Shown: positions 10,255 to 46,138 of the stretch, one piece after another
How the letters are laid out: the number at the start of each line of letters is the position of its first letter
Position numbering within the stretch: position 1 is the first letter of the stretch
NCBI GenBank assembly: GCA_021736985.1
Contig: JAIPEW010000022.1
Coordinates: forward strand, 1 to 46,138
Direction: 5' to 3'
Origin: Clostridiales bacterium
GTDB lineage: Bacteria; Bacillota; Desulfotomaculia; Desulfotomaculales; VENG01
DNA length: 46,138 bases
Position numbers and translations under genes: made by a program
Notes under the pieces: model-generated
The model's input: only the letters and a program-made list of their open reading frames with translations
Databases searched by the model: none
What the model was told of the DNA's origin: nothing

Positions 10255-10272
10255 TTTATATTTCCCCCAATA

Positions 10273-11226: not shown

Positions 11227-11252
11227 AAAAATTCCTCCTGATTTTTATCATA

Positions 11253-23803: not shown

Positions 23804-24025
23804 ATGTCCCGAGATAACAATAAAGTTATTGAATTTGACACTAAAAAGAAAAAAAAGCTAAAAGCATTGGACTATGTTTCTCCGGAAAAAAAAGAAATGT
23901 TGCGCAAAAGAAAAATGGAAAAACAAAAGAAGATAAACCGTATGCGTACTATCAAATCGGTTGGTTTATTCTTACTTATATGCATAATACTCTATTTTTT
24001 AGGACCGGGATTAAAATTATTTTAA
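23804..24025 (+). CDS. Small basic single-pass membrane protein, unknown
   Basis: 73 residues. The first 50 are extremely lysine-rich and probably helical (KKKKKLKALDYVSPEKKEML), and the last 23 form one hydrophobic helix (VGLFLLICIILYFLGPGL). The likely topology is cytoplasmic N-terminus, short C-terminal end. ATG at 23804 follows AGGAAGTG; an in-frame GTG at 23795 is part of that site. The gene stands alone. Size and layout recall small division or spore membrane proteins, but nothing specific is recognisable. Confidence 0.6.
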   Translation: MSRDNNKVIEFDTKKKKKLKALDYVSPEKKEMLRKRKMEKQKKINRMRTIKSVGLFLLICIILYFLGPGLKLF

Positions 24026-24124
24026 TAGATTTCGGGCAATAAGCTCTGTTCACTCATAATATTCACCGCTCAGGAAAAAATATTAAAAAATAGCTCACCG
24101 AGTTTAGAACAAGAATTTGCTGCT

Positions 24125-24856
24125 TCAATCAAGACTTAAGATACTTTCTACTTCTTGCTGTAAAGTAGAAGATGCAGGCAAACTAACCAGGAGTTCCGGC
24201 CATGAAATTACATGCGGGCACTTTCCCTCCCAGTAATTTAAAGCTTTAAGTTGTTCCATGCGCTCTATTGACCTTACTTTCTCAGAGTCACATACTACAA
24301 ACATAAAAACATCTCTTTTATCCCATTGTAAAGCTTTTAATACTTCTATCATAACCCTCTGCCTGATAAGCTGGTGAGCAAGTATATTTTTCCCATTAGA
24401 TCCCAATTTTTCTTTACGCTTGGCCTCTACCAAACAAATGCTGCCTTCTGTAAAAATAGCTGCATCTATTTCAGTGTTTCTCAACTCATTAAATATTTTT
24501 TCTCTATCCTGATCGCTGTAATAATTATCTCGCATGCGCAGTTTAGTCTTTCTAACTGCATCTCGTATTCCCTTTATTATTCTTTTATACTCAACAAAAA
24601 AATTTTCTTTACACTCTTTATATTCCGCCGCGTAATCCCTAAAGCCTTTCCAAAACAATTCTAATTTTGCGCTGTCTAATTTATCCTCTTCCAAACCCAA
24701 ATACTTAAATCCTTTTTTAGCTAACACTGAACTATTATAGAGATTAATAAAAACTTTTGCTGTAAGGTTATTCTCCGCGCGGTTAATAATACCTGAAGAC
24801 CTCCCGAAGTTAAATATCTTGCTCGCAAAAAAAAATTTAATCACACTTAATTTCAT
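24125..24856 (-). CDS. Unknown protein with PD-(D/E)XK nuclease-like motif
   Basis: 243 residues, not assigned to a named family. The middle reads TEIDAAIFTEGSICLVEAKRK (about 128-148): an acidic residue, Asp, a hydrophobic strand and E-A-K, the arrangement of PD-(D/E)XK nucleases, followed by HQLIRQRVMIE that could supply the usual downstream Gln. A basic helical stretch precedes it. No transmembrane segment is certain, though residues 1-15 are hydrophobic and basic. The start at 24856 has no good ribosome site, so a different start is possible. It is divergent from the 39-residue gene at 24906. Confidence 0.55.
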   Translation of the reverse strand: MKLSVIKFFFASKIFNFGRSSGIINRAENNLTAKVFINLYNSSVLAKKGFKYLGLEEDKLDSAKLELFWKGFRDYAAEYKECKENFFVEYKRIIKGIRDAVRKTKLRMRDNYYSDQDREKIFNELRNTEIDAAIFTEGSICLVEAKRKEKLGSNGKNILAHQLIRQRVMIEVLKALQWDKRDVFMFVVCDSEKVRSIERMEQLKALNYWEGKCPHVISWPELLVSLPASSTLQQEVESILSLD

Positions 24857-24905
24857 ATTAATATTTGTGCTTTACTATAAATAATAAGTGCAAGGAGGTG
24901 AAACA

Positions 24906-25025
24906 ATGACCAATGAACTTATCGAAGAGATTTTACAAAGTATCGGGCTGGAGAAAATAAATAAAGATAATGAAAATGACGAGCATATCAGTAAACAACA
25001 AAAAGATTTAGTATACGTAAGTTAA
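24906..25025 (+). CDS. Small acidic protein, 39 residues, unknown
   Basis: An open frame of 39 codons (MTNELIEEILQSIGLEK... ending VYVS) starts five bases after a full-consensus ribosome site, AAGGAGGTG. The first 17 residues would form an amphipathic helix and the rest is charged. Its last 18 bases overlap the 3' end of the convergent exonuclease-like gene. Protein-level evidence is lacking, but a perfect ribosome site on an open frame in this AT-rich region is unlikely to be chance. Possible roles such as antitoxin or regulator are speculation. Confidence 0.55.
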   Translation: MTNELIEEILQSIGLEKINKDNENDEHISKQQKDLVYVS

Positions 25026-25724
25026 AACCGGGCGATGATCTGAAATATCAACACTTAACACTTTGCTGCATATTTTTTTGACATTAACTCCGCTGGCAAA
25101 CCAAAAGTCAATTTTCGGATTATACAAATTATCATAACACTCGAATGTACATGTTCCTTCAGGTCCAGCATCTATCATTTGAAACCTGCTATTACACATA
25201 ATATTATGTGTAATGGTTCCTTCCCCGGCATTTAAATCCCCGCCAATAATAGCTCTTCCAGGAAATTTTTTGTGTAAAATGCTTTTTATTTCTACAGCCT
25301 GCATTTCCTCATCTCCAAGCCCCAGGTGAAATGTTCCCACGTAATAATATTTATTATCTTTTTTTACACATACTAATAAAAAGCTGCGATCTTCCGTGTC
25401 TTTTTTCCCTTTAAAATGATGACGGATAACAGTTTTCATTGGATACCTGCTTATTATTGTATTACCATAACTCCCAGGATACATTTTTATAGACGTAATA
25501 AATTTATGCTTCCACTTAACACCAGAAGTTAAACTTAAAATTTCAGCTATTTCTTTAGCCTGGTGTATTCTTCCACTTCTTTTTGTATAAACATCAACTT
25601 CTTGAAGAACAGCAATGTCAATCCCACAATGATTTATAGTTTTTGAAATAAAATGCATATTTTGTTTTATTGTCCTTTTTATGCTTGAATTATAATAATG
25701 GCCTGACTTAATATTCCATGTCAT
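25008..25724 (-). CDS. Endonuclease/exonuclease/phosphatase family protein
   Basis: 238 residues with the EEP fold motifs in order: MTWNIKSG at the N-terminus (Asn metal ligand), IAVLQEVDVY (catalytic Glu), YVGTFHLGLGDEEM, IIGGDLNAGEG (Asp/Asn), and the C-terminal SDHRPVLTYVY. Members hydrolyse phosphodiesters or phosphoinositide-type bonds; the substrate here cannot be inferred. There is no signal peptide, so it is probably cytoplasmic. ATG at 25724 lies about ten bases after a GGGG run, a weak ribosome site. Confidence 0.85.
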   Translation of the reverse strand: MTWNIKSGHYYNSSIKRTIKQNMHFISKTINHCGIDIAVLQEVDVYTKRSGRIHQAKEIAEILSLTSGVKWKHKFITSIKMYPGSYGNTIISRYPMKTVIRHHFKGKKDTEDRSFLLVCVKKDNKYYYVGTFHLGLGDEEMQAVEIKSILHKKFPGRAIIGGDLNAGEGTITHNIMCNSRFQMIDAGPEGTCTFECYDNLYNPKIDFWFASGVNVKKICSKVLSVDISDHRPVLTYVY

Positions 25725-25777
25725 TACATGTATCCCCAGGACTGTTCACTCCCCGCGAAAAAGTAATAAATTATTTT

Positions 25778-26242
25778 TTACTTTTGTATACCGCATGCTT
25801 TACAAACTTCCTCGTAAAAAAAATAAGGATCCTGGTCCCAATAATCAGGGCTATATTCTACATTGTTATCTTCTATCCACGATAATGCTGATTTAATCAT
25901 TTCCAGGGCAACTTCAGAAGCACGCTGGTCACTAACAACAGCATAACTCAACTCGTCAATAAAACCAGCTTTTTCACTATTGATAACACTGTGCAAAACA
26001 ATATTATTTTTCGACAGTTTATAATAATCAAAACAAACATATTCGTACTCACTGCCTATTACAAACTTCTTTTTTCCGTAAGGATCTGTTATATCTTCAG
26101 CATAACGGGCCTTATCTTTATCAGTTGTTTGTTTATAAGTACCATCATATAAATTAAAGGGCGACAAAACATAGCCAAACTCGTCAAACGGAATTCCATC
26201 TTCCCATACATAAATTTCTTCCAAGTAATCTTTTAAAATCAT
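25778..26242 (-). CDS. Hypothetical acidic protein
   Basis: 154 residues, unrecognised. It is acidic and unusually rich in Tyr and Asp, with no signal peptide or membrane segment. ATG at 26242 follows a GGAGAGAAAAAC ribosome site, which supports a real gene. The C-terminal half has a helical segment (QRASEVALEMIKSALSWIEDN). Such small acidic aromatic proteins are sometimes immunity proteins or DNA mimics, but there is no direct evidence for either. It is a single gene on the minus strand. Confidence 0.6.
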   Translation of the reverse strand: MILKDYLEEIYVWEDGIPFDEFGYVLSPFNLYDGTYKQTTDKDKARYAEDITDPYGKKKFVIGSEYEYVCFDYYKLSKNNIVLHSVINSEKAGFIDELSYAVVSDQRASEVALEMIKSALSWIEDNNVEYSPDYWDQDPYFFYEEVCKACGIQK

Positions 26243-26365
26243 GTTTTTCTCTCCTTTTCCTGGTATTTAATAGTTTATTAAAAGATCAATTTTTTTAAAT
26301 TTTAATGTCGAATATTATATTTTTTTATTATAGAATTACTAATAAAATACTTAGGAGGCGAAAAT

Positions 26366-26995
26366 TTGTTTACTGGATCAAGGATAAAAAATAAAAGAGC
26401 TATTTTCACATTAACTTTAGCTTTTATACTAGGGTTTATAACTTTAGGATTAAATTTTACAAACCTTTGGTATTCCTACTCGGCAGCAGCAATAATACTA
26501 GCTTTATTAGCAATTATATTTGGCGGAAAACCTTTATCATTAAAAGAAATAAACTTCAAAGCTATTATAAAGGGTATTTTTTTAGCTATTATATTGTACG
26601 GTCTTTTCTGGTTTGGAACTCTAGGTGCAAGTAAATTGTTTAACTTTGCACCTGTTCAAATAGATTCTATTTATGACCTTCTTACACGCCAGAAATTATG
26701 GATAATAAGTTGTATCTTACTTTTTGTAACCGGTCCTGCCGAAGAAATATTCTGGAGAGGATTTCTGCAGCGCTGGCTGAGACAACATGTGAAAAAAGAA
26801 GCTGCCTTAGTTTTAAGCGCACTATTTTACGGTGGAATATATATTTTTTCAGGAAATATCATGTTATTTTTAGGTGCCTTTGCTGCAGGTTTATTCTGGG
26901 GATATTTTTACATAGTAGAAAAAAGCATTGTTCCTTTAATCATTTCTCACTCCTTATGGACATTTATGATTATAGTATTATACCCCTTAATATAA
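26366..26995 (+). CDS. CPBP-family intramembrane protein
   Basis: 209 residues with about six hydrophobic segments. The CPBP (Abi/CAAX-like) motif 1, EEIFWRGFLQRWL (Glu126, Glu127, Arg131), is clear, and motif 3 is SHSLWTF (His195). Motif 2, normally F-x3-H, reads FYGGI (154-158), so the usual second histidine appears to be missing and the protease may be inactive; this depends on my alignment. The start is TTG at 26366, eight bases after AGGAGG. It stands alone on the plus strand. Family roles include prenyl-protein processing and bacteriocin self-protection. Confidence 0.8.
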   Translation: MFTGSRIKNKRAIFTLTLAFILGFITLGLNFTNLWYSYSAAAIILALLAIIFGGKPLSLKEINFKAIIKGIFLAIILYGLFWFGTLGASKLFNFAPVQIDSIYDLLTRQKLWIISCILLFVTGPAEEIFWRGFLQRWLRQHVKKEAALVLSALFYGGIYIFSGNIMLFLGAFAAGLFWGYFYIVEKSIVPLIISHSLWTFMIIVLYPLI

Positions 26996-27070
26996 CCAAT
27001 TTTAACCTCTTGATTTATCCCTGTAAAAGAATTACTATAGAACAAATGTTCTATAGGGAGAAAATAAATC

Positions 27071-27361
27071 ATGAACAACAATACGTTATGGGAAAAACAC
27101 CGAATTTTTATTCCACAGATGCGCTCCAAAGCTACTCACCGCTGTAAGCACTGCAAGTATTTTATAAAAATCCAGGGTAAAAAAGAAATTAGATATGGTT
27201 GTGTTATAAACATACAAATCTACAAGCAGCAGGTAAAAAAAGTGCCTCCGGTCATTCCTATTATAGAAATAATAAAAGAAGTAGGAAAAGAAGGTTTAAA
27301 ACAATGTGTAAAAAATAATAATCCTGATGCACAGGCCTGCGGAAAATTTTATCCTAAATAA
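27071..27361 (+). CDS. Small five-cysteine protein, unknown
   Basis: 96 residues, starting at ATG 27071 after AGGGAGAAAA. Cysteines lie at 25, 28 (HRCKHCKYF), 44 (YGCV), 79 (KQCV) and 90 (QACGKF), with a proline-rich centre (KKVPPVIPIIEIIK). Five cysteines in this pattern could bind a metal or an iron-sulfur cluster, but I recognise no family. There is no signal peptide. It lies between the CPBP gene and the recombinase. Confidence 0.62.
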   Translation: MNNNTLWEKHRIFIPQMRSKATHRCKHCKYFIKIQGKKEIRYGCVINIQIYKQQVKKVPPVIPIIEIIKEVGKEGLKQCVKNNNPDAQACGKFYPK

Positions 27362-27572
27362 CAGATTAAAAATCGGAATTTATTCAATTTCTTTATTATA
27401 TTTTATAAAAATTTAAAATGTATCATATTGTGTATTTTTCTTTATTTGTTAACCTTATAGATTCTATTATTTAATGTAATTATAAGATAATACACTGTAC
27501 TTGCTCATTAATGTAACAAACTATATAATTATCGAAGAAATACATATATATATCAATGAGGTGTACTTTTAA

Positions 27573-28136
27573 ATGAACTATGTTCAACCTATTAAAGATA
27601 CTCAAAAGTTAGAAATTATAAAAAAAATTCTTAAAGCTGACAGCCTGCGCAACTATTGTTTTTTTGTGTTAGGAATTAATTGTGGAATACGCATTTCTGA
27701 ATTACTTAAACTCACTATAAAAGATGTTTCAGATAAAAATGGTAAAATTAAAGACAAAATTACTATAACAAATAATAAAGGGAAAACCAAAGAATTTCCA
27801 CTGGGAGTACAGGGAAAAAAAGCGCTTAAAGAATATATAAAAAAAACTGAAATGTCAGATGAAAGCCCATTATTTCCAAGCAAAAAAGGAAATAAACCAA
27901 TAACACGAGTACAAGCCTATAGAATTATAAATAATGCCGCACTGCATGCCGGTATTACAGAAGAGATAGGTACGCACACACTTAGAAAAACTTTTGGTTA
28001 TCATGCATATAAAAATGGTACTGATATAAAATTTCTGCAAAAACTTTTTAACCATTCCAGTGTAGAAATAACCCTGCAATATATTGGCGTAAGCCAGGGT
28101 GAATATGATCCTTTTTACATGGTTTTTGATATTTAA
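27573..28136 (+). CDS. Tyrosine recombinase, catalytic domain only
   Basis: 187 residues forming a phage-integrase type catalytic domain. Arg40 (GINCGIRISELL), a Lys near 71, His135-x-x-Arg138 (THTLRKT), His161 (FNHSS) and Tyr170 (TLQYIG) give the complete active-site set. The N-terminal core-binding (SAM-like) domain of XerC/D and most integrases is absent; the protein starts almost directly at the catalytic domain. ATG at 27573 follows GAGGTG. No phage genes or tRNA adjoin it, so it may be a domesticated or solitary recombinase. A terminator follows at 28285. Confidence 0.88.
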   Translation: MNYVQPIKDTQKLEIIKKILKADSLRNYCFFVLGINCGIRISELLKLTIKDVSDKNGKIKDKITITNNKGKTKEFPLGVQGKKALKEYIKKTEMSDESPLFPSKKGNKPITRVQAYRIINNAALHAGITEEIGTHTLRKTFGYHAYKNGTDIKFLQKLFNHSSVEITLQYIGVSQGEYDPFYMVFDI

Positions 28137-28197
28137 AAAAATGCGTATAATATTATAAAATTTAGTCATAATAAATGGTTGAAGGATTACAAAAAAA

Positions 28198-28225
28198 ATT
28201 TCCCCACATAAAAAAAAGGGGAAAT
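28198..28225. other. Hairpin downstream of the recombinase gene
   Basis: ATTTCCCC (28198-28205) and GGGGAAAT (28218-28225) form an eight-base stem. There is no T run on the plus side, so it is a weak terminator at best or a protein site. Confidence 0.4.
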
Positions 28226-28284
28226 ACATATAAGTAATTCGCGAGTAGAATTATTATTTCCAAAAATACAAAATTTTTATTCAT

Positions 28285-28313
28285 ACTATCTTTTTTTAAA
28301 AGATAGTTTTTTA
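28285..28313. terminator. Bidirectional terminator between recombinase and kinase genes
   Basis: ACTATCTTTT (28285-28294), loop TTT, AAAAGATAGT (28298-28307), followed by a T run. A runs on the other side let it also serve the minus-strand operon that ends at 28311. Confidence 0.8.
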
Positions 28314-28994
28314 TTTAATACTGAGGATCTTCTCACGAATCCTGTCCTGGACAGCTTCAGGGTTTTCATGACCGTCAAGCAATATAAAATCATATTCTTT
28401 AGCCATAATGTCAAGCTGTTTTGCCAGCAGACTCTGGTAGATCTGGAAACTTTCAAACATATCCCCTGATAAACATATATCCATACCTGATTCCCAGTAA
28501 TCCAGTGTACCATATGTTTCAAACGACCTGTAAAGAAGAACCTGTGGATCTACTTGTAAGTAAAATACCATATCAGGAACTGGCGCAAAACCAAAGAGTT
28601 TTTTTAACCATTTACTGGATGCTCTTCGAACTGCATCCCTGGCCATTAAGGTAAATATATACCTATCTGATAAAACTATAAATCCTGCTTTTAATGCCGG
28701 AAGTATCTTATTTTCTAATTGATCGGCAAAGTCCGTTGCATAAAGAAGGCTCAATGTTTTTTTTCCTAGAATGTTCCCCTTCTTTGCTTCTTGTATAGCG
28801 TCCCCTACCAGGTTCGAGCGCCTTAAACCGGCATCTGAAACAGCATGTCCCTCTTTTTCAAGCCACTGGCGTAGAAGAGTAACCTGGGTAGATCTTCCGG
28901 AGCAATCAGCACCTTCAATGACTATTAATTTACCTGTATAATCAACTTCTTTTACGTTTGGTATACCTTGCCCGTAAAAACTTAATTTTCCCAT
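28311..28994 (-). CDS. Thymidylate-kinase-like protein with altered P-loop
   Basis: 227 residues of the thymidylate kinase fold. The P-loop reads GADCSGRST (28-36): the Lys that binds ATP phosphates is Arg34. The DRY motif (110-112) is present but is followed by IFTLMARD, not the SxxAYQ of true dTMP kinases. A distinctive YWESGMDICLS stretch (about 168-178) replaces the LID region. It shares that signature with the gene just upstream, whose stop codon overlaps its start. It could be a weak kinase, a pseudoenzyme partner, or act on another substrate. Last gene of the three-gene operon. Confidence 0.8.
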   Translation of the reverse strand: MGKLSFYGQGIPNVKEVDYTGKLIVIEGADCSGRSTQVTLLRQWLEKEGHAVSDAGLRRSNLVGDAIQEAKKGNILGKKTLSLLYATDFADQLENKILPALKAGFIVLSDRYIFTLMARDAVRRASSKWLKKLFGFAPVPDMVFYLQVDPQVLLYRSFETYGTLDYWESGMDICLSGDMFESFQIYQSLLAKQLDIMAKEYDFILLDGHENPEAVQDRIREKILSIK

Positions 28995-29716
28995 TATCCA
29001 CTAATCTCCTTAACTTTACTTAAAAATTCTTCATAAATATTCGAATTGAAGTTTAATAGTACTTTGTTAGTGACAATCCTTCGCATTATCTGCTGCTGCT
29101 CCTCAATGCTTTCAGTGCCGTCCATTACAACAAAATCTTCTTTACTGCTCATTCTGTCATATTCTTTTTTAACTCTTCCCTGGAACAATCTAAAACTCTC
29201 TACAGGATCATTACTTAACTCCAGATCCATGCCAGCTTCATGATATTTTATCATGTTTCGGGCAGCAGTAATTCGCTCCAATGCAACATCTATAGGAACT
29301 TTAAAATAGAAAGTAAGGTGTGGGCGCATAGCAAAACTATACACATTGCGCACCCACTCATAGTCGCATTCCCTGGCCACATCCCTTGCAAATGCGGTAT
29401 AAGTATACCTGTCAGCAAGAACTATATATCCAGCTCTCAAGTGAGGTAATATCATTTTTTCATACCTGTCAGCAAAATCACTTGAATGCATCAAGGAAAA
29501 AGTAGTAGGTGTTAACATATTTTCCTTTTTAGCCTTTTTTGTATAACTTCTTACTAATTTAGATGAATTCCATTCAGTAAAGAATACCGGGTAATTTTGG
29601 TATTCAAGCCAGCATTTTAGCAAGTATAACTGGGTGCTTTTACCTGATCCGTCGCATCCTTCAACAACTATTAATCTACCATTATAACCAGCAGCAAAAA
29701 AATCTTCGGATTTCAT
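28994..29716 (-). CDS. Thymidylate-kinase-like P-loop kinase
   Basis: 240 residues. The intact P-loop GCDGSGKST (20-28) and DRY motif (102-104, then TYTAFARD) place it in the thymidylate kinase family. The residues after DRY and the YHEAGMDLELS segment (about 177-187) differ from canonical Tmk and match the neighbouring paralogue, so a different nucleotide or phosphate substrate is possible. Its start overlaps the stop of the Ppx/GppA gene and its stop overlaps the next start, which implies coupled translation of all three. Confidence 0.85.
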   Translation of the reverse strand: MKSEDFFAAGYNGRLIVVEGCDGSGKSTQLYLLKCWLEYQNYPVFFTEWNSSKLVRSYTKKAKKENMLTPTTFSLMHSSDFADRYEKMILPHLRAGYIVLADRYTYTAFARDVARECDYEWVRNVYSFAMRPHLTFYFKVPIDVALERITAARNMIKYHEAGMDLELSNDPVESFRLFQGRVKKEYDRMSSKEDFVVMDGTESIEEQQQIMRRIVTNKVLLNFNSNIYEEFLSKVKEISG

Positions 29717-33633: not shown

Positions 33634-34303
33634 TTAAGCCTTTACCCTTTTTTCCAGTACCGTATAAATCATGCTGTATACCACCGGTATAACTACCAGG
33701 GTTAAAAATGTAGATATCAAAAGACCGCTCATCAGAGAAACAGACATAGCACAAACAGGGGACTTCCAGAAAAAAGAAGGGGGACCAACCCGAAAATGGT
33801 AGTCCCGTCAAACACTACTCCAACCTTTTGCAAGTCCAGGGAAGACAGTTTTTTCTCCAGGACATTTTCTATATTCACGGCACTGTGGACCGGTTTACAT
33901 CACTGAAAACTGTTACCACCCGGTCCCGGTCGTACCTTTTTATAGTTGACCGCTGAGCATCAAGTTTTACATCAGCAATTTGTTTCAGCAGTACTTTATG
34001 CCCAACTGCTGAAGATTTTATAGCCAGGTTTTCTAATTTTTCCCTGGTATTAATATTACTTTCCACCAGTATATCGTACTTATTACCGCTTTTGCGGAAC
34101 ACAGAGGCTACAGCCCCTCTCAGGGCGATTATTTACCTGCCTTTGTATGTCATAGTTACTGATTCCCATCTCCAGGGCCCGGTCACTGTCTACATCTATT
34201 CGAAACTAATATTTTTTATCACTGGAGTCATCTTTAATATTTGAAGTTCCAGGTATTTTTTCCAATGCTGACTGTATATCTTTAGTGGACAGTTTAACTT
34301 GTT
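33634..34303 (-). pseudogene. RND efflux transporter remnant (AcrB type)
   Basis: Minus-strand fragments in different frames match RND pumps in the right order. First come KLSTKDIQSALEKIPGTSNI and, after a stop, FRIDVDSDRALEMGISNYDI (about 34300-34140). Next is KYDILVES...LLKQIADVKLDAQRS (34100-33900), then NIENVLEKKLSSLD (about 33870). Last is LMSGLLISTFLTLVVIPVVY ending EKRVKA-stop (33730-33634). That is periplasmic-domain pieces joined to the last transmembrane helix, with at least one stop, frameshifts and a large internal deletion; a full pump has about 1,030 residues. It is not functional. Confidence 0.85.
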
Positions 34304-36120: not shown

Positions 36121-36190
36121 ATATAAAAAGTTAAAGCCACCAGCTCAAGACTGGCGGCAACTGATTGCAAGTGAAAGCTCGCATAATATC

Positions 36191-36234
36191 TGGTGGGCGG
36201 GAGAAGAATTGAACTTCCGACCTCTTGCGTGTCA
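36191..36234 (-). tRNA. tRNA-Val(GAC) 3' half, partial; probable integration scar
   Basis: The minus strand reads TGACACGCAAGAGGTC, then GGAAGTTCAATTCTTC and CCCGCCCACCA. This is the anticodon loop with GAC, the 3' half of the anticodon stem (GCAAG), variable loop, T arm and acceptor 3' strand with encoded CCA. The 5' half (D arm and acceptor 5' strand) is absent; upstream bases turn into unrelated AT-rich sequence. Elements that integrate into tRNA genes leave exactly such a 3' duplicate at one end, with the intact tRNA at the other. The orientation puts the element to the right, toward 46138 and beyond. Confidence 0.8.
36191..36234 (-). mobile_element. Probable attachment site (att) at the left edge of a defence island
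   Basis: The tRNA 3' fragment coincides with a change in gene content: housekeeping and metabolic genes to the left, DNA modification and phage-defence genes to the right. No integrase is present between 36235 and 46138, so it would have to be beyond the window or lost. Confidence 0.6.
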
Positions 36235-36331
36235 ATTTTATGGAGTAAATTTTAGGAGAAATCGACTAACCTCAAAAGCCTTGTATAATGCTTTTTCAGG
36301 CCAAATTCCAAGACTTTTTATACCAAGTGCT

Positions 36332-37000
36332 TTAAGTAAATTCTTTTCTAAAATTACAACTGCTTTCAACAGGACATTCTTTGCATTTTGGTCTTCCTCT
36401 ACCTTTGCAAACTAAAGCCCCAAAATCTAGTAATGCATAATTATATTTTATATAATTTTTACAAGGCAACATTTCCCAAGCTATTTTTTTAACTTCTTTA
36501 TTTCGCCTGACATCTCTAGGACCATTTAAACCCAAAAATCTTGAATATATACGTACTACATTTGCATCAATTACCGGTACTCTTTTGCCAAGGCAAAAAC
36601 ATGAAACCGCATTTGGTATATATATACCTACATGAGGCAAAGCTTTGATTTCATCTATAGATTTGGGAATACCTTTTTCTACTAAAACTTTAGAAATATC
36701 TTTAAGTACTTTAACCCTTTGTTGGTAAAGTCCGAGTGGTTTTATAATTTTTTCTATATCCTGAACCGGGCTATACAATAACTTTTCAGATGATGGAAAA
36801 GCTTCTAAAAAACTAGAGTAGACTTTTTCAACTTGAAGTGCTGTGGTTTTACGCAGAAGTAGTTCGGCAATTAAACTCTCATAAACAGTTATATTTTTAA
36901 CTCTCCAGGGAAATATACGAAAATTTATATCTCCCCAAAATAGCAAGTTGTCAATAAAAAAAAATTTATCTTCGTAATTTTTATTATTGGTGACTGTCAA
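36332..37000 (-). CDS. Mig-type HhH-GPD DNA glycosylase (T/G mismatch, predicted)
   Basis: 222 residues, an EndoIII/MutY superfamily glycosylase. The helix-hairpin-helix reads LPHVGIYIPNAV, with Tyr127 where EndoIII has its catalytic Lys, followed by VPVIDANVVRI with the conserved Asp145. A [4Fe-4S] cluster motif, Cys198-x7-Cys-x2-Cys-x5-Cys215, closes the protein. Tyr plus Asp in these places and this length match Mig of Methanothermobacter, a glycosylase that removes T from T/G pairs arising when 5-methylcytosine deaminates. The adjacent C5-methyltransferase gene fits that role. MutY is less likely because the C-terminal MutT-like domain is absent. The start is TTG at 37000 after AAAGGTGG. 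Confidence 0.82.
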   Translation of the reverse strand: MTVTNNKNYEDKFFFIDNLLFWGDINFRIFPWRVKNITVYESLIAELLLRKTTALQVEKVYSSFLEAFPSSEKLLYSPVQDIEKIIKPLGLYQQRVKVLKDISKVLVEKGIPKSIDEIKALPHVGIYIPNAVSCFCLGKRVPVIDANVVRIYSRFLGLNGPRDVRRNKEVKKIAWEMLPCKNYIKYNYALLDFGALVCKGRGRPKCKECPVESSCNFRKEFT

Positions 37001-37807
37001 CTGATAAAAACCACCTTTTATACTGGTCCATTTTATTCAAACCGATTCTTTATAAAAAACCATATTTTAAACAGTACATTGAATTTGTATTATTATGTAA
37101 AGCATGTAAGATAATCTTTTTTAAAAAGATATTTTTTAGCAGAAATGTTTAGTTTAATTAAAGACATAAGGACAGGATAAGACTACATTGTCAAAACAAA
37201 AGTAGTCCAAATGAAATCATTTTAGAAATACATAAAATATGGAATACTGATTGGAAAAACAGAAGAAATTTTTAATAACTTAGCGGTCGTTCGAAATGTC
37301 ATCGGCCATTATTGCCTGCGGGTATTCATAGGCCTGAGTTTGCTTTGATCTTATGAATTTTGCAGTTTTTATCTAGTATGTGTTGGCTGTACTCCGAAAA
37401 AAGTGCTAGGGTAATATGTTAATAACAAATAAAGGCAACTTTCCCCATCATTTTGAGAATAAAAGCCAGACCTCCGCAGGGAAATTAATCTACGTGGGTA
37501 TATCTAAATTAAGTCTTGATTATATGATTTAGCTTTTCCGGTCAGGAAAAACTAAATCTATTTCCTCCTTTTTCAAGGTGTAGTGCAAGTATTATTAGGT
37601 GAGGTACTGTATCCATCTTAAAATTTACGCTTTGAAAATTGGGTGATCGGTACCAAGTTAATTATTGCTTTTAGAGCAAAAAAAAGTGATTCAATTACGC
37701 TTGGCTATATGTAAATGGTTAATAATTTACCCCAATCTTACCCCAATGCACTTAAAAAAGAGTTTAAATTACTGGTGTTAGTTAAAAAACTATTTGCAAA
37801 TACTGCT
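37001..37807. other. Gene-free region, 807 bases, inside the island
   Basis: No open frame of credible composition or recognised RNA is seen. One minus-strand fragment at about 37730-37760 reads CIGVRLG-stop, which recalls the last residues of some phage integrases, but it is too short to claim. The base composition and many stops suggest decayed DNA. Confidence 0.3.
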
Positions 37808-39043
37808 TTATACTGCTTGCACACCCGGAATTTGAACATCTAAGTACAATTCTAAAGTTCTTTTAACTTCAGCAGCTATAAGACTAGAAAGCTCAACTGG
37901 CACTCCATTTCCTATAGCTTTAAACTTATTAGTTAAAGCCATATCACTGGGCAGAATATATGAATCCGGTGCAGTTTGAAGCCTGAGTGCTTCTCGAACT
38001 GTTAACCTTCTAGGCTCCACAGGATGAAGGTGAACTTCATTATTCCCGTACGCAACTGCCGGGCTATACCGGAACCTGTGTAGCCTTTTAAATGACCTTC
38101 TACCTGTATCCCCTTCCCAAATTTCATTAAATTTTCTTGATATTGGCCGAAAATGCTCTAACTGGTTGGGTATTTCTTGGGTTAAGCCTTTAAAATTACT
38201 ATAAACACACAATCTTTTAGCGACTTCAGGAATTTTATTATCATTAAAGACTTCTGTAATAGTTAAGTTCATCTTAGTTTTATCCCTGAATGACCATTTT
38301 TCAGGCCAGTTAAAACTTCTTGGATCTTCGCTTTGGAAAAGTTTTTGAGGCCACCTGAAAACCAAGTTATCTCGAGAATCTGGTGTATTTAGTTGAAGAT
38401 AATTGCTTAAATCTTCATTCGTTGGAACATTTAAACCCCGCTTCGAAAGTTCATCAATAATATCATTTCTAAAACCTATAACGAAAACTCTATGCCTGTC
38501 CTGAGGAATACCATAATCAAGAGCATTTAACACATTATACCAAACAGTATAATTAGTTGTTCTGTTAAAATCGTTAACTAATTCTATAAAAACTTTCTTA
38601 TGTTTTTTAGTTCTATATAAACCATCCACATTTTCAAAAACAAAGAAATATGGTTTTAACTCTCTCACTTTTTGAAAATAATCGTTAATTAGGCGCCCTC
38701 TTTCTCCAGTAACTCCTTTGTTATTACCACCAATAGAATAATCTTGACACGGAGGCCCACCAATAATACCCCAAAATTCCTTTTGACTATGGTTAATAAT
38801 TTCCCTAGCAGTTATTTTAGTGATATCAACTCCACTTTCTGGTATAGTACAGATATTATAACTTTTGTCTAGTAAATTAATTTTTTTTAGATTTTCAACG
38901 TGATTCTTTAGCGCATAATTATATGCTTCTACATAAGAAGGGTCTATTTCACAACCCCATAATATTTCATATCCCTGGTGAATAAAACCACAATCCATTA
39001 ATCCTGCTCCGGAATAAAGTGATATAACCTTTATAGATTTCAT
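37808..39043 (-). CDS. C5-cytosine DNA methyltransferase
   Basis: 411 residues with the standard order of C5-methyltransferase motifs: SLYSGAGLMDCGF (motif I, AdoMet binding), IIGGPPCQDYSIGG (motif IV, catalytic Cys99), FENVDGL (motif VI, about 136-142), IPQDRHRVFVIGF (motif VIII) and AIGNGVPVELSSLIA (motif X). The target recognition region is roughly 200-340. It transfers a methyl group to cytosine C5 within an unknown target. The facing endonuclease gene is broken, so it now acts alone or as the modification arm of the neighbouring drmAB system (the role of DrmMII). ATG at 39043 follows GAGGAAGATGAT. Confidence 0.93.
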   Translation of the reverse strand: MKSIKVISLYSGAGLMDCGFIHQGYEILWGCEIDPSYVEAYNYALKNHVENLKKINLLDKSYNICTIPESGVDITKITAREIINHSQKEFWGIIGGPPCQDYSIGGNNKGVTGERGRLINDYFQKVRELKPYFFVFENVDGLYRTKKHKKVFIELVNDFNRTTNYTVWYNVLNALDYGIPQDRHRVFVIGFRNDIIDELSKRGLNVPTNEDLSNYLQLNTPDSRDNLVFRWPQKLFQSEDPRSFNWPEKWSFRDKTKMNLTITEVFNDNKIPEVAKRLCVYSNFKGLTQEIPNQLEHFRPISRKFNEIWEGDTGRRSFKRLHRFRYSPAVAYGNNEVHLHPVEPRRLTVREALRLQTAPDSYILPSDMALTNKFKAIGNGVPVELSSLIAAEVKRTLELYLDVQIPGVQAV

Positions 39044-39248
39044 ATCATCTTCCTCTCATACCCTACCAAATTTATAAAGCTTTAGAAACTTACATTCTTT
39101 TACAAAATAATCAAATCATATTTATTCTTGCTTTTAGGAGTAAAATTTATAATTTCTTTAATATTAGTAAATATTCCTTTGTATTATTGAAATTTAATTA
39201 ATTTTATAGATCCTGGTTTGATGTTTTCTTTTGATGTTTTATAATGAC

Positions 39249-39282
39249 TTTACAGTTTTTGTTTAAATACAAAAACTGTAAA
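39249..39282. repeat. 34-bp palindrome between methyltransferase and endonuclease genes
   Basis: TTTACAGTTTTTGT (39249-39262) and ACAAAAACTGTAAA (39269-39282) are exact inverse copies separated by TTAAAT. The site lies in the divergent promoter region, 66 bases before the endonuclease start. It is a good candidate operator, but no controller (C) protein gene is visible in the window. Confidence 0.72.
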
Positions 39283-39347
39283 TTTAAAACTTTTTTTTCG
39301 TGACTTATTCTCAAAAACTAGCGAGTAACTTAAAGGAGAGTTTAATT

Positions 39348-40519
39348 TTGCATAACGGTATATTTTCTTTCAATGAACTGGTATCTTCAGAACTTTATAT
39401 TGATGCTATATAGCAAGGCGGTAATGAAGGTAATGTTAAAGATGACCCTTTAAACCAGCTAATGGGATGCGGTAATCAAGGTGGATTTCGTATTGTAGGA
39501 AGACCACCATCTTATAAATATGCAATTTTATACTCTAGTTTGGACGAACCAGACTGGCCTGACGATTTGGATCTTGAAACAGGAGTTTTTACTTATTATG
39601 GAGATAATAAGCAACCGGGTTATAACTTGCATAAAAAAAAGGGGAACAGGTTACTAAAATATACTTTTAATTTATTACACTCTTCTCAAGTTGATCGTAA
39701 AAAAATCCCCCCTTTTTTTATTTTTACAAAGGAACCTCAGGGTAGAGATGTAATATTTAGGGGACTAGCAGCCCCCGGTGCTGAAGGATGCCCGCCAACT
39801 TAAAGCTTAGTAGCTATTTGGAAAAATAAAGAAGGTTCTCGTTTTCAAAATTATAAAAGTATATTTACAATTCTTGATGTTCCAGCTATATCCCGTAACT
39901 GGCTCAGTGACATAAAAGAAGGTAATGTTCTAAGTAACAATTGTCCAGCTGCGTGGCACAAGTGGGTAGAAACAGGTTTCTATACCCCTTTAAAAGCCCC
40001 AAAAACAGTAGAGTACCGTACAAAAGCAAGCCAAATACCTTCTAGCAAGCAGCACTATGAAATCATTCAATACATATATCAATATTTTAAAGATGACCCT
40101 TACACTTTTGAAAAATGTGCAACAGAAATAGCACGTCTTATGGATAATAATATTACTAGTTATAAACTCACTAGAAGATGGGTAGACGGGGGCGTGATGC
40201 TACAGGCAAATACCGTATAGGAATGAAAGATAACGCAATAACAGTTGATTTTGCTTTAGAAGCTAAATGTTATTTTATTGATAACCCGGTAAGAGTAGAA
40301 CAAACATCTCGTTTAATTTCACGTTTAAGATACAGGCAATTTGGCATACTAGTCACTACTTCACATGTTCACCACCAGGCATACAAAGAAATAAAAGAAG
40401 ACGGACACCCTGTTATTATTATAACAGCAATAGATATAGTAAACATATTAACCCGGGCAAGTTATAATACAAAAGATAGTGTGAGAAAGTGGTTATATCA
40501 AAACTTTCCTAAAACATAA
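39348..40519 (+). pseudogene. Type II-like restriction endonuclease, broken (AspBHI-N plus Mrr-type nuclease)
   Basis: Starting at TTG 39348 (ribosome site AAAGGAGAG) the frame gives a roughly 390-residue endonuclease. The N-terminal region (NGIFSFNEL, GNQGGFRIVGR, LETGVFTYYGDNKQPG, PPFFIFTKEPQGRDVIFRG) resembles the AspBHI N-terminal domain. The C-terminal part has an Mrr-like PD-(D/E)XK core with VDFALEAKCYF and FGILVTTSHV. It is interrupted by TAG at 39411-39413, TAA at 39801-39803 (between PGAEGCPPT and LVAIW) and a one-base loss near 40190, where DGG should continue RDATGKYRIG. Three separate lesions mean the nuclease is dead. Confidence 0.87.
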
Positions 40520-40555
40520 ATATAATGACTAACTAATAAAGCATTACATAATAGT

Positions 40556-40582
40556 AAGCCCGCGCTTAGCGCGGGCTTTATT
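40556..40582. terminator. Bidirectional terminator between the endonuclease remnant and drmB
   Basis: AAGCCCGCGC (40556-40565), loop TTA, GCGCGGGCTT (40569-40578), followed by TTATTAAAATTTT on the plus strand and an A/T-rich tail on the minus strand. It serves two converging genes. Confidence 0.87.
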
Positions 40583-40594
40583 AAAATTTTACTT

Positions 40595-42508
40595 TTAATA
40601 TATACTTCTTATAATCTCTCCAAAATATCCTAAGTTTGAATTAGCATGCTCCCCCACTACAAGTGCCCTGTCTAAAAACATATTAAACTCCTCGCAAGCT
40701 GTTTCTGGTACCAAAGCACAATTATGGCACGCAGCCAAGTTACACGAGTTTGGCCCCTGGCCACCACGTGCTCCTAGTTCCATACATACCGGGTCAGTAG
40801 AACACCACTGGGCATTTGCAAGTGCCCCGCGTATAACCGGTTCTAAATAACCAGGTTTGCCCATACGGACAAGACCACCAAGCGTACCCTCTGCATCTCC
40901 AGCTGCTGTATAGATTAATACTCCTGCCATGGGAGCCTCTTTGTTAGTAGATACATACAACCTTTCCTTCAAAGAAGCTGAACTGTACCCGCATTCAAAA
41001 GTAAGCCTGTTCATTAAAAGATGAGCAAAAGTATGCAATAAAACAAACTTTGAACTTACATGCCTTTCTTTCAATTTTTTATTTTTTTGTTCCTCTGTAT
41101 ACCTCTCCACCAGTGGTTTTAACCGTTCATTAATAATTTCATAATTAGAACTTACCCATTCTTCTATCTTGTTTTCGTCAAATTCTATAAAAATACCCTC
41201 ACCATATACAATAAATGCAGGCAACCACATATTTTTACCATGTGGCAAATCTGCCCACATTAGTGACTTCATATCATCAGGTTCTAGCTCGCTTTCAGGA
41301 AATATTCTTCTAAATCCTGCCAGTGCCCGTGTTTCTTTTAATTTATCAATAAGCATTATTCTTGAAAAAAACTTAGTAATATCTTGCTCGTACATGCTTA
41401 AATCTGCTTGCTTTATTCGCAACTGGTCCTCGTCTCTCTCAGTACGAAGAGCATTAAATTCCTCGCGCCGAAAACTAGTCTCTATATCATCTCCTTCAAT
41501 TTTTTCCTCTTCTTGCTGGGTCTTGGAATCATTCCCTAATACTGCTTTTAATGCACTTTCTATTTGCTTATCTTTATAAGGATTTAACATACGGGCGTTT
41601 ATTTGGCGCAAGTAATCTGGAGTTAACTCACTTTCTGCACCTGACTTAACAAGTGTTTTTATTATTGTTGAAAAAGGTAAATCCTCCAACGTTGCTACAA
41701 GCTCTGAAGGCACATCATCCTTTTCTCTTGGCAAGTAAATAGCACTATATATATCTGCAAAATAAACATTAGATGCACTACGAAGCGAGCCACGTAACGG
41801 GCGATCACAATTTTCTCCTTCTTCAGTCCCGTGCCAAGGACGTTTACCCTTGCAAGTATATTCATTTTCATTTTCTAAGTATTTAGTTAAATATGTTTGG
41901 CCATTAGAGTAGGCAATCGTTATACTAGCAAGAGGGCGTTTGGCACCACAATTACATACGATTTGTTGGCTAGCAAGCGTGGCCCCGCCGGTGCTAACTA
42001 GGCGCATAGGCTCTTGGCAACTAGGGTTAACCGAGCGATGAACCCATTCCCTCCATGGAAAATCTTGTATATGACCGTGATCGCAAATCGCTACAAAGGG
42101 AACTTGAACTAAATACCTTGTTTTACCTTCTTTCTCGCATTTTTTACACTTAGCTTTTTCACGAGATGTAAGTGGCAACTTCTCTAAATAACCACACGTT
42201 GTACAATAATGCCACTGTGGAAAGCGTAAAAAGGGAACATTAAGCCAGCAGTTAGGTATATCTTCTCCTTGACCCTTAGTTCTATAATCCGGGGGAAGGC
42301 GAAAATGGTCAACTTTTAATCGTTTTTCTAAACGCCACTCGTTTATCTTAAACTCGTTAATATCAATATTTTCATTACTAGTAGATTCTCTCTCGTACCA
42401 GTGGTCAAGGCCACAAGTAATAAGAGAAATACCATCCCTAGCCACAAACATTGCCCCTACACCAAAAGGAGCAATAAGCTGGGCACGCCTTATTGGGCTA
42501 TTACTCAT
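40595..42508 (-). CDS. drmB: DrmB-like DUF1998 protein (DISARM component)
   Basis: 637 residues. The N-terminal IRRAQLIAPFGVGAMFV is a DrmB-type opening. Several zinc-ribbon-like pairs follow: CTTCGYLEKLP with KCKKC (about 107-135), ICDHGHIQDFPW, VCNCGAKRP. The C-terminal DUF1998 domain (about 490-610) ends with QWCSTDPVCMEL, SCNLAACHNCALVPETACEEFN. In DISARM, DrmA and DrmB form the core complex that binds and blocks incoming phage DNA. Its start overlaps the end of drmA by eight bases, so they are coupled. No drmC (phospholipase D-type) gene follows; a terminator and the dead endonuclease gene do. Confidence 0.88.
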   Translation of the reverse strand: MSNSPIRRAQLIAPFGVGAMFVARDGISLITCGLDHWYERESTSNENIDINEFKINEWRLEKRLKVDHFRLPPDYRTKGQGEDIPNCWLNVPFLRFPQWHYCTTCGYLEKLPLTSREKAKCKKCEKEGKTRYLVQVPFVAICDHGHIQDFPWREWVHRSVNPSCQEPMRLVSTGGATLASQQIVCNCGAKRPLASITIAYSNGQTYLTKYLENENEYTCKGKRPWHGTEEGENCDRPLRGSLRSASNVYFADIYSAIYLPREKDDVPSELVATLEDLPFSTIIKTLVKSGAESELTPDYLRQINARMLNPYKDKQIESALKAVLGNDSKTQQEEEKIEGDDIETSFRREEFNALRTERDEDQLRIKQADLSMYEQDITKFFSRIMLIDKLKETRALAGFRRIFPESELEPDDMKSLMWADLPHGKNMWLPAFIVYGEGIFIEFDENKIEEWVSSNYEIINERLKPLVERYTEEQKNKKLKERHVSSKFVLLHTFAHLLMNRLTFECGYSSASLKERLYVSTNKEAPMAGVLIYTAAGDAEGTLGGLVRMGKPGYLEPVIRGALANAQWCSTDPVCMELGARGGQGPNSCNLAACHNCALVPETACEEFNMFLDRALVVGEHANSNLGYFGEIIRSIY

Positions 42509-45500
42509 CGCCTTCCCCTCCTTGCTTGTAGAGAGTTGTTATTTTAGTCCTGCACTCGGCATCGACATTTCTCATTGACATGGGTGTAGGCCATGAAAGG
42601 TATTCTTGTTCTTTTGTAGCGTAAGAACCTGCTCTCCTTAATAGTGGTATATCAGTTGAATTCATGCTTTCCCATAATGTGGGCTCCCATTTCAACCACT
42701 GGCGCACCCTTTTATCAAACACATTTTTAGTATTTTCCACCTCATCATTATCAATAAAATTCACGCGGTTTAATACTATACTTCTTAAATGTTCTATTAT
42801 ATCGTTAGGGTACGGGTATGGTCTTTTTGCTATATCTTCATCACCAGCTTGCCTAACATACGAAACCATGACAGCATGTAAAACACGATCAAGTGCCGGC
42901 GGGGAAAAAGGTGTGACACTTGTAGGTTCAACTTGAGCATAAAGCCGTTCATGATAACTTCTAAACTTTTCAAAATGAGAGCGGTCTCTTGGTTTAGATG
43001 CACCATAAATAGTTACTACTATTCCTGTTTTTTCCCACCAGCGTCGCCCAACACGACCGGTTACCTGTATATACTGCGAAGTAGTCTTAGGCTGGCCAAC
43101 TACACTCATTAATGATAAACGGTCAATATCCACGCCTACCTCAATAATATTCGAAGCTAGGCAAACATCTACAGGGTATTTATTACTTGTACAGTTTTTT
43201 TCTAACTCTGCAATAGCTTCAGGGACTTGATCCCCCCGTAACCTGCTCGTTAACTCTTGTATATTATATAATTTCCTAATCTCCTGAAAATCCACCCCCA
43301 AGCGGTTTTTAAGCACTTTAAAATAATCGGGAATATCTGATTGGAACAAGGAAAGAGTAGTTCCTAATTCCCTCAGGCTATTAAAAAAGAGTAGTAAACT
43401 CCACCACGGGTCCCTTTCTTCATTATTCAAAGAATATGGTGCTTGAGTTAAAGCAGTAAACGTTCGTACTTGTGTTGTTTGTATAGACCCTAAACCCGGC
43501 GCGTGAACTCCAACATATTTTTTTCCAGGTAGCAAGTTACCACTAGAATCCCTGGCATAACAAGAAAAAAATGAATCACTTGCATCAAGACCTGGCGGGG
43601 GAAATAAGACTACATCGTCCCGGCCGTAAAGAGCCTTTATTTGCTCTGTATACTTGCGGATTGTTGCTGTTGAAGACACGATCTTAGGTACTACCGGAGT
43701 ATCTCCCCGGCGGTCTGTACACAATTCTTCGATTACAACTTCGTAAAGGCCAACCATAGAACCCAAAGGACCAGAAATTAAATGCAACTCATCTTGTATA
43801 ATTAATTCAGGCGGGGAAGCATCCCGTTCTCCTCCCAAATTAATTCCAAATATTGATCTTGCCTGCGGCCGCCAAGCTAGCATGGCAAACTTGTCCACTG
43901 TACCTATAACTAGTGAAGGCCTGTGCTCGTAAATATCTTCATCAACAACATACACTGGTAATCCATTGCTAAACTCGCAATGTTTATCAGGGCATTTAAA
44001 AACTACAGTATTACCCTTTTGCTCGTATCCCAATACTCGCGGGATTCTTTTGTTCTTTGGAGGGGGTCCTTTATACCTTCCCATTTCAGCCCCACACCAG
44101 GGACATTGCCCTATTACAAAAAGGTTTTCCTCTTTGCTACTCTTTCTTAATTTATTTAATGCTTCTACAGCCTGGTCACGCTTGTTTGGTGTAGTACTAC
44201 CTCCTAGCCATATGCCTATAGAAAATTCAGATTCCCCCAGGTTATCTTTAGTTTTCCTCCGAAGATAATCCATAGCACAAATAAGCGCTGACGCCCGCTG
44301 GAATTGTTGCGCTGTCAATAGCCTGAGTGTATACCTCATCAAAACGTTAACACCTGTATCGGAAGGGTCTACCAACCGGCGCATAAACATCGAAAATGCT
44401 GCCAGTCCCAAGTACGCTTCAGTTTTACCACCACCAGTAGGAAACCAAATTAATTCAACTACCCGTCGATCAGGAATTTTCCCGTCTGCAGCAGAATAAA
44501 GGGACATTAAAAAAAATGCTATTTGAAAAGGTCTCCACTTACCCTGGTTTTCCCCTGTGTTTAATGGATCAGGCTCAATATATTCACCCTCAAATATATA
44601 GGAAGAAATTTTTGAATCGAACTGTGCTTTTCTTGGCTTACGTCTACCTTGAAGTTGCTGTAGTAACATTGCGTGGTTTGCTAGCTGAAATGCACGCCAA
44701 GCATTTTTATCATTCCACAAATAATCAAGGCCATCTTCCATTCTTTCCACACACCGCTCGCATTCTTCTACATGTTTTTGGGCAGGTTTTTGATATCCTT
44801 TATAAAGAGAATGTATTTCACTTTTCTTTTGTTCAATCCAGTTTTTGTATAATTGAATTATTTCTTTTAAAGCATCTATCCCGTTATCTCCTGGTACCAA
44901 ACCGGCTAAAGAGGCCATTGATACATCTACTTTTGTGCCGTCTTTTCTTTTTATTTCTGGTGTTGTATTAGGTGACTCGTATACTGGCAAGGATTCCGCG
45001 CTTACCCATTGTGCTTTATCGACATCAAAAACTTCCCAGTCAGCTGCACAACCATGACCGATAGCATAAGTTTGTGATTCTTTATATAACAGTGCTAGAG
45101 ATTGTTCTTCTTCTTCCATTTCTTCTGGAGATAAACCCGGGTATGGTAATATATGAGCTTTTTTATCCGGGGATTCAACACGTGTTTTTAACCAAGATTG
45201 GAATAAACATATACTATCATAACCATTATATTCTTCTTTAGTACTTTCACTACTAGAACGGTTTACAATACACACTGTTAAAAGACGCGTGCGAGAATTT
45301 AAATGCTGTCGTGAAAACACTTCTAAATTGATATCAAGCCCTTTAGTATTTTCTTCTTCAAGAGAACTTGATTTAACTAATCCTTCACCATCAAAACACA
45401 AATCACTTTCGCTAAACCTGGCATTAATACTTACTGGTTCTCTTAACCACCACTCTCTATCTTTGTCATTGACAGAAACTTTTTTCTTGTAATAACGGCC

Positions 45501-45992
45501 TCCTGTTACTTTTACAACGAGTTCCGAGCCTTCCGGAAATTCTGCTAAAAAACTTATGCCCATGCTACTGGGTTTTAATGAATTAGCCGTTGAAAGCTCG
45601 AAATCATCTGGTTCTTGCTCGCTACTACCTCTTATATTTTCCCTTTTTTCAATTTTTTCTGCACTTTTCACTTGCTCGTCAGTTGTAAAATCTTCTCCAT
45701 CTTTATTTTCTTCATCTCCACTATTATCTACCTTACCAGTTTGAGAACTCTCATCTTCCATTAATGTACCTAGCGGGTATAATACTCCAACTCCATAACG
45801 TGACGTTGGCTTGTCACGCTGTAGTATTTCTTCTCCTAAACCTTTTTGTTTCCATGGTTTGTAAAATTCTTTAACCGTGTCAAAATTAATAGTATCTGAA
45901 CAATTTATTTCTTCACCTTGCGGTGAAGGGCCAACAAGTTCTTCTTTTAAGGCCTCAATTATTTGTTCTCTGTTTTCTATATGCGTAGCCAC
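42501..45992 (-). CDS. drmA: DrmA-like helicase (DISARM component)
   Basis: 1,163 residues, a large superfamily 2 helicase. Walker A WFPTGGGKTEAYLG lies near residue 520, the DEAD-type box IIQDELHLISG near 735, SSTATIRK (motif III) near 770, NIIEVGVDIDRL near 950 and QVTGRVGRR (motif VI) near 980. A Cys pair set (CPWCGAEMG ... CPDKHC) interrupts the region between. The N-terminal 500 residues, with a Glu/Asp/Ser-rich stretch at about 80-140, are characteristic of DrmA. The start is GTG at 45992 after GAGGGAGGG. It heads the drmA-drmB operon in the window; a further upstream partner may lie past the edge. Confidence 0.9.
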   Translation of the reverse strand: MATHIENREQIIEALKEELVGPSPQGEEINCSDTINFDTVKEFYKPWKQKGLGEEILQRDKPTSRYGVGVLYPLGTLMEDESSQTGKVDNSGDEENKDGEDFTTDEQVKSAEKIEKRENIRGSSEQEPDDFELSTANSLKPSSMGISFLAEFPEGSELVVKVTGGRYYKKKVSVNDKDREWWLREPVSINARFSESDLCFDGEGLVKSSSLEEENTKGLDINLEVFSRQHLNSRTRLLTVCIVNRSSSESTKEEYNGYDSICLFQSWLKTRVESPDKKAHILPYPGLSPEEMEEEEQSLALLYKESQTYAIGHGCAADWEVFDVDKAQWVSAESLPVYESPNTTPEIKRKDGTKVDVSMASLAGLVPGDNGIDALKEIIQLYKNWIEQKKSEIHSLYKGYQKPAQKHVEECERCVERMEDGLDYLWNDKNAWRAFQLANHAMLLQQLQGRRKPRKAQFDSKISSYIFEGEYIEPDPLNTGENQGKWRPFQIAFFLMSLYSAADGKIPDRRVVELIWFPTGGGKTEAYLGLAAFSMFMRRLVDPSDTGVNVLMRYTLRLLTAQQFQRASALICAMDYLRRKTKDNLGESEFSIGIWLGGSTTPNKRDQAVEALNKLRKSSKEENLFVIGQCPWCGAEMGRYKGPPPKNKRIPRVLGYEQKGNTVVFKCPDKHCEFSNGLPVYVVDEDIYEHRPSLVIGTVDKFAMLAWRPQARSIFGINLGGERDASPPELIIQDELHLISGPLGSMVGLYEVVIEELCTDRRGDTPVVPKIVSSTATIRKYTEQIKALYGRDDVVLFPPPGLDASDSFFSCYARDSSGNLLPGKKYVGVHAPGLGSIQTTQVRTFTALTQAPYSLNNEERDPWWSLLLFFNSLRELGTTLSLFQSDIPDYFKVLKNRLGVDFQEIRKLYNIQELTSRLRGDQVPEAIAELEKNCTSNKYPVDVCLASNIIEVGVDIDRLSLMSVVGQPKTTSQYIQVTGRVGRRWWEKTGIVVTIYGASKPRDRSHFEKFRSYHERLYAQVEPTSVTPFSPPALDRVLHAVMVSYVRQAGDEDIAKRPYPYPNDIIEHLRSIVLNRVNFIDNDEVENTKNVFDKRVRQWLKWEPTLWESMNSTDIPLLRRAGSYATKEQEYLSWPTPMSMRNVDAECRTKITTLYKQGGEGDE

Positions 45993-45998
45993 TTTCTA

Positions 45999-46138
45999 CC
46001 CTCCCTCTTTATAATTCCATTTTCCTTTGATATGCTCACACATTCTCAAAATTTTGTTACCATTAACATTTTGATAGGTAGATAAAACTTGAAGCAATGC
46101 AATTATCTGTTAGCAAGATGTGACCTTCACCAAGGGTG
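45999..46138 (-). other. Possible end of an upstream gene at the window edge
   Basis: On the minus strand, up to the stop at about 46002, one frame reads QIIALLQVLSTYQNVNGNK and continues to KWNYKEGG-stop. A second frame is open from the edge (LGEGHILLTDN) and stops at about 46067. The composition looks protein-like. It may be the C-terminus of an upstream DISARM-operon gene with a frameshift, or chance. The drmA ribosome site GAGGGAGGG overlaps its end. Confidence 0.35.

Follow-up and report, generated by a model that had tools for sequence, protein, structure and literature searches.

A probable DrmC-less DISARM-type operon with a NERD-UvrD gene, a putative split DrmE and a C5-methyltransferase beside a Mig-type glycosylase

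The drmA-drmB core and its neighbours

DISARM-type genes are found at one end of the window, that is, the whole stretch of DNA analysed here, which measures 46,138 nucleotides and is an entire contig (C14) of a Clostridiales bacterium. Reading from the contig end inwards, the features are as follows.

45998..46138, minus strand: IS110-type element (right end), adjoining drmA on its upstream side
42501..45992, minus strand: drmA, YprA-family helicase; Walker A (TGGGKT), DELH and QVTGRVGRR motifs intact
40595..42508, minus strand: drmB, MZB/DUF1998 protein; 8-bp overlap with drmA
39351..40519, plus strand: AspBHI-type restriction endonuclease pseudogene (RE_AspBHI_N and Mrr_cat), converging on drmB
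37808..39043, minus strand: C5-cytosine DNA methyltransferase of the BsrFI/Cfr10I lineage, intact
36332..37000, minus strand: Mig-type HhH-GPD DNA glycosylase, predicted T:G repair, intact
36190..36235, minus strand: 46-bp exact copy of the tRNA-Val(gac) 3' end, the distal attachment repeat of an island

All five genes, drmA, drmB, the endonuclease, the C5-methyltransferase and the Mig-type gene, lie where the original prediction had placed them, and it was also right that drmA and drmB overlap and run leftward. DrmB passes the NCBIfam model NF038324 (458 bits, cut-off 240), and DrmA comes just below the cut-off of NF038325 (931 bits, cut-off 950); the PADLOC DrmA model matches the window protein at E 3.6e-218, and both drmA and drmB are DISARM-type. 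Elsewhere in the window, positions 33875-34102 encode a 75-aa AcrB/RND transporter-like fragment (PF00873, below cut-off), likely a pseudogene remnant, and about 6 kb at 23486-29715 hold no open frame of at least 250 aa in an otherwise gene-dense contig.

The endonuclease gene retains both of its domains in a broken frame. Compared with the intact gene at a related locus (L026), it carries exactly three lesions, the number first reported: two nonsense codons (TAG at 39411, TAA at 39801) and the loss of a single base near 40192. The L026 protein, of 392 aa, matches AspBHI (4oc8) over its full length in both domains (E 2.7e-110), and the nearest solved relatives of the endonuclease are AspBHI, LpnPI and MspJI, enzymes that cut DNA containing modified cytosine. 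By homology, the window gene thus belongs to a probably 5mC-dependent family and appears to be an optional extra at drm loci. Since the family is 5mC-dependent, the gene would not be the classical type II partner of a C5-methyltransferase; that role was considered and dropped on the AspBHI match, the predicted dependence on 5mC and the broken frame. A modification-dependent endonuclease beside a C5-methyltransferase likewise does not fit the type II restriction-modification-repair cassette that had been proposed for this locus.

The methyltransferase has intact PPCQ, ENV, QDRHR and GNGVP motifs and is the sole PF00145 match in the genome. PADLOC scores it highest with DruM2 (382 bits) and MTase_II (369 bits), and DrmMII reaches 127. 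For the neighbouring glycosylase, which matches PF00730, the closest solved structure is Mig (1kea); the alignment with it shows the Tyr/Asp site and four Cys expected of Mig, and we regard the protein as Mig-type with a predicted T:G glycosylase activity. The PADLOC label for Mig-type glycosylases, the one at 36332-37000 included, is the misleading 'Type II nicking endonuclease' (PDLC03398). Mig and Vsr are known to repair the T:G mismatches that arise at 5mC sites, and this accounts for their pairing with such a methyltransferase.

The other half of the operon on a second contig

Because contig C14 ends 146 bp before drmA, neither an absent drmC nor a reduced system can be read from the window. 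Three further operon genes sit at one end of a second contig of this genome, C32, which also carries an intact tRNA-Val(gac) (coordinates within locus L119).

10072-11811: NERD nuclease-UvrD helicase gene, at the contig end
8513-10069: gene for the C half of DrmE (E2), at the contig end
7518-8516: gene of 332 aa (E1), putative N half of DrmE, at the contig end
6025-6099: intact tRNA-Val(gac)

Contig C32 terminates behind the NERD-UvrD gene, inside the left end of an IS110-type element. The right end of such an element closes the window in the matching orientation, as judged against the other genomic copies. After the intact tRNA-Val(gac) on C32 comes a tyrosine integrase of which only a C-terminal remnant is left, and the 46-bp tRNA-Val copy sits just past Mig, so that copies bound the island on both sides. 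Given the matching IS110 ends and the flanking tRNA-Val copies, the most likely order of the island is tRNA-Val, integrase remnant, E1, E2, NERD-UvrD, IS110, drmA, drmB, endonuclease remnant, methyltransferase, Mig and repeat; the join of C32 to C14 across the gap is inferred from these facing ends and repeats. The 'reduced DISARM variant' suggested earlier was abandoned once E1, E2 and NERD-UvrD had come to light on C32. A premature stop suspected in the C-half gene on C32 was discarded, as the stop is the natural end of the gene.

E1 and E2 together would represent a DrmE split into two genes, judging by their relatives, profile comparison and position. None of the NCBIfam models is passed by E2 of this genome; its 535-aa counterpart at L026, 52% identical, passes DrmE_C and DrmE_fam (PF24957 and NF038316), and E2 matches the C half of one-piece DrmE when profiles are compared (99.9%). 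E1 has no match among the family models and is colinear with the N half of one-piece DrmE in the same type of comparison (75%, E 2.5e-5). Both proteins are modelled with confidence (pLDDT 93.6 and 89.8), and the folds show modest similarity to helicases: E1 to a RecA lobe carrying a Tudor-like insert (Z about 7-8), and E2, over residues 17-221, to the second lobe of helicases of the Hef/XPF/RIG-I type (Z about 10). For neither protein did Foldseek return a match below 1e-3 among the families listed. As the folds are helicase-like and the Walker A pattern is absent from 64 of 65 E1 or one-piece DrmE proteins, DrmE may tentatively be read as a degenerate helicase.

In NERD-UvrD, the NERD residues E52, D54, E68 and K70 (E-x-D...E-x-K) and the helicase Walker A and B residues are invariant across 28 aligned sequences, as expected of an active nuclease-helicase; a pattern search finds the motif pair in 61 of 66. 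No DrmC was matched anywhere in the genome of the window with PDLC02595, one of many DrmC models, and the same model does match in B. subtilis. The absence of drmC noted in the original prediction is therefore upheld at genome level for this model, although the window alone could not have shown it. The further claim that a restriction gene takes the place of drmC fails: the AspBHI-type gene is present at few loci, and it is NERD-UvrD that is found where DrmC is missing. An iterated profile search found DrmC (PLD) essentially missing from the operons of related loci. Among Bacillota loci, drawn separately and combined with order-level relatives, six carry NERD-UvrD, six carry DrmC and none carries both, an exclusion that is weak in the Bacillota sample alone (one-sided P 0.08). 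NERD-UvrD is the best candidate for the nuclease of DISARM systems that have no DrmC. At one DrmC-type DISARM locus (L173), a Mig-like gene directly follows DrmC; the repair link is thus not limited to NERD-UvrD systems.

Recurrence of the unit in other genomes

A single-protein search of genome contigs with the methyltransferase found nothing, so a DrmB alignment was used as the query and gave 80 loci. Pooling these with relatives yielded 83 non-redundant drmAB loci, and upstream genes were counted in the 73 that have at least 4.2 kb upstream. As the sample was drawn by DrmB similarity, the resulting fractions describe one DrmB clade rather than all DISARM: NERD-UvrD is present in 61 of the 73 loci (in 55 together with DrmE), split DrmE in 59 and one-piece DrmE in seven. 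Loci with NERD-UvrD span about 15 phyla, with Actinomycetota the commonest (29/63). A search of plasmids found no DNA-level match to the window region.

The gene order of this locus recurs, complete and intact, in a genome of the same taxonomic order and another family (G476), which reads Mig, methyltransferase, intact endonuclease, drmB, drmA, NERD-UvrD, E2 and E1 and shares 65-73% identity with the five window genes. A C5-methyltransferase is nearby in 57 of the 83 loci. In 26 of these 57, Mig or Vsr is encoded within 1 kb of the methyltransferase or fused to it, a count that covers drm-linked C5-methyltransferases and is not an enrichment over type II systems; in the other 31 no repair gene is close by. 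In samples, HhH-GPD, Vsr and a methyltransferase fusion were confirmed by Pfam. The G476 order and these counts bear out the view that a DISARM core, a C5-methyltransferase and a repair gene form a real recurring unit. Fusions of a C5-methyltransferase to a Mig-like HhH-GPD domain occur in Actinomycetota drm loci, at four non-redundant loci by profile (L065, L066, L112 and L094, at 9882-11939), of which L094 is Pfam-confirmed.

AspBHI-type endonucleases are found at five other drm loci. The gene is intact at L026, L068 (49% identity) and L178 (28%), is cut by the contig end at L111 and persists as a remnant at L105. Only four of 398 Bacillota genomes exceed the PF18062 cut-off, and in two of these (the genome of the window and G386) the gene is at a drm locus. 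On plasmids, AspBHI-type endonucleases at L141, L143 and L144 adjoin Z1/PD-(D/E)XK (MZA-like) defence genes or a C5-methyltransferase.

In a quick tree with SH-aLRT support only, the methyltransferases of the window and L026 pair at support 100, nested in a clade (99) with M.BsrFI, type II methyltransferases partnered with Cfr10I and other drm-linked methyltransferases. On this tree, the enzymes must have moved between drm and type II settings at least four times. The condition set for refuting the original prediction, that the methyltransferase groups only with type II partners and that no other genome shows the drmAB grouping, gives a split outcome: the enzyme belongs to the BsrFI/Cfr10I type II lineage, but the grouping with drmAB recurs elsewhere. 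In view of the switches, methyltransferases appear to be swapped in and out of these operons, and 'DrmMII' would here denote a role more than a lineage.

Interpretation and comparison with known systems

The best explanation, which we consider probable, is that the island carries a DrmC-less DISARM-type anti-phage operon made up of drmE(N), drmE(C), NERD-UvrD, drmA and drmB, together with a swappable C5-methyltransferase and a dedicated T:G repair enzyme. The window genes would then be half of a widespread and apparently unnamed version of DISARM. Gene content, order, recurrence and motifs were observed directly, and each functional step that follows is inferred from them. The methyltransferase would mark host DNA at a short site. 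DrmAB is known to load on DNA that has free 5' ends and lacks the mark, and to unwind it (PMC9142583), and we assume that this holds here. Split DrmE, with its predicted helicase fold and lost ATP site, may serve as a scaffold or sensor, and NERD-UvrD would supply the nuclease-helicase role otherwise thought to be that of DrmC. Mig here, and Vsr elsewhere, would mend T:G mismatches arising in host DNA from deamination of the 5mC that the methyltransferase makes. Where intact, the AspBHI-type endonuclease could add a layer that cuts cytosine-modified phage DNA, provided that its target context differs from the methyltransferase site; such a complementary second layer is plausible by analogy with BREX and BrxU (PMC8565348). 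It is speculation that the endonuclease died in the window through conflict with the methyltransferase's own 5mC mark.

It is unlikely, in our judgement, that the island is merely decaying and has no present function. The three lesions of the endonuclease, the reduction of the integrase to a C-terminal remnant and the IS110 element between the NERD-UvrD gene and drmA would all be explained in this way, and because of the dead endonuclease, the integrase remnant and the IS inside the operon, this copy looks partly decayed and may be failing. However, the other seven genes are full-length open frames with motifs intact where checked, and at the IS end a purine-rich GGGAGGG is retained immediately ahead of the drmA start.

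Quite improbable is a chance neighbourhood in which a type II restriction-modification-repair cassette lies beside drmAB and its methyltransferase does not serve them. The grouping of the methyltransferase with M.BsrFI and Cfr10I-partnered enzymes at high support and the exchanges forced by the tree would suit such an arrangement, as would the 806-bp spacer between methyltransferase and Mig (37001-37807; 163 bp in L026), of which the genome holds no other copy. Yet the adjacent endonuclease, by homology of the 5mC-dependent AspBHI family, could not partner a C5-methyltransferase, the genome has no other PF00145 enzyme, C5-methyltransferases are frequent at related loci, and at some of them (e.g., L046 and L051) the methyltransferase directly follows drmB with overlapping reading frames.

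An ordinary class 2 DISARM that has lost DrmC, with NERD-UvrD as an unrelated passenger, would share DrmA, DrmB, a DrmE-like protein and a C5-methyltransferase with class 2, and DrmC is reported to be dispensable and often missing (PMC9142583), but this is highly improbable, as NERD-UvrD is too conserved for a passenger, with its catalytic residues retained and the gene placed between drmE and drmA at 61 of the 73 loci, or behind drmB at a few Bacillota ones.

Going further, the DrmC-less operon could represent a third, DrmC-less class of DISARM that spans many phyla, with a NERD-UvrD effector, a split pseudo-helicase DrmE, built-in 5mC repair and sometimes a mark-tolerant 5mC-dependent endonuclease; we put this forward tentatively, as a possibility we take seriously and hold with less than even confidence. 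Since DrmC is dispensable and often missing, it is in question which protein is the DISARM nuclease, and the conserved nuclease-helicase encoded by operons that lack DrmC is a direct candidate for it. That the methyltransferase recurs with Mig or Vsr, in some cases as a fusion, suggests that the defence operon itself deals with the cost of 5mC deamination, and the presence of a 5mC mark and a 5mC-dependent endonuclease at one locus poses a puzzle of self-harm that lends itself to bench experiments. The literature searched contained no description of a DISARM variant that includes NERD or Vsr/Mig, and the novelty of the variant is provisional because the coverage of that literature is incomplete.

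Several known systems share parts of this arrangement. TALON also combines a YprA-family helicase and a NERD nuclease in one operon; its helicase is ARMADA-like and accompanied by TPR-CSD and TBP genes, whereas drmA and drmB of the window are DISARM-type, and the TALON paper does not describe NERD together with DISARM (PMC12458937). Type II C5 systems with Mig (pFV1) or Vsr likewise join a C5-methyltransferase to a T:G repair enzyme, and the window Mig is nearest to 1kea, but the partner here is a DISARM operon instead of a type II endonuclease. The AspBHI/LpnPI/MspJI family is represented by an intact relative that matches AspBHI in full; the gene here stands at a DISARM locus beside a C5-methyltransferase, and the window copy is dead. 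BREX with BrxU (PMC8565348) similarly pairs defence against unmodified DNA with a modification-dependent endonuclease; the proteins are different, and the host mark here is 5mC, the type of mark that AspBHI-type enzymes attack. Class 2 DISARM (drmE, drmA, drmB, drmC and drmMII) resembles the variant in having DrmA, DrmB, relatives of DrmE and a C5-methyltransferase in one operon. The variant differs from it in lacking DrmC and having NERD-UvrD, Mig or Vsr alongside, in a DrmE that is split into two genes in most loci, and in a methyltransferase nearer to BsrFI-type enzymes and the PADLOC DruM2 and MTase_II models than to DrmMII.
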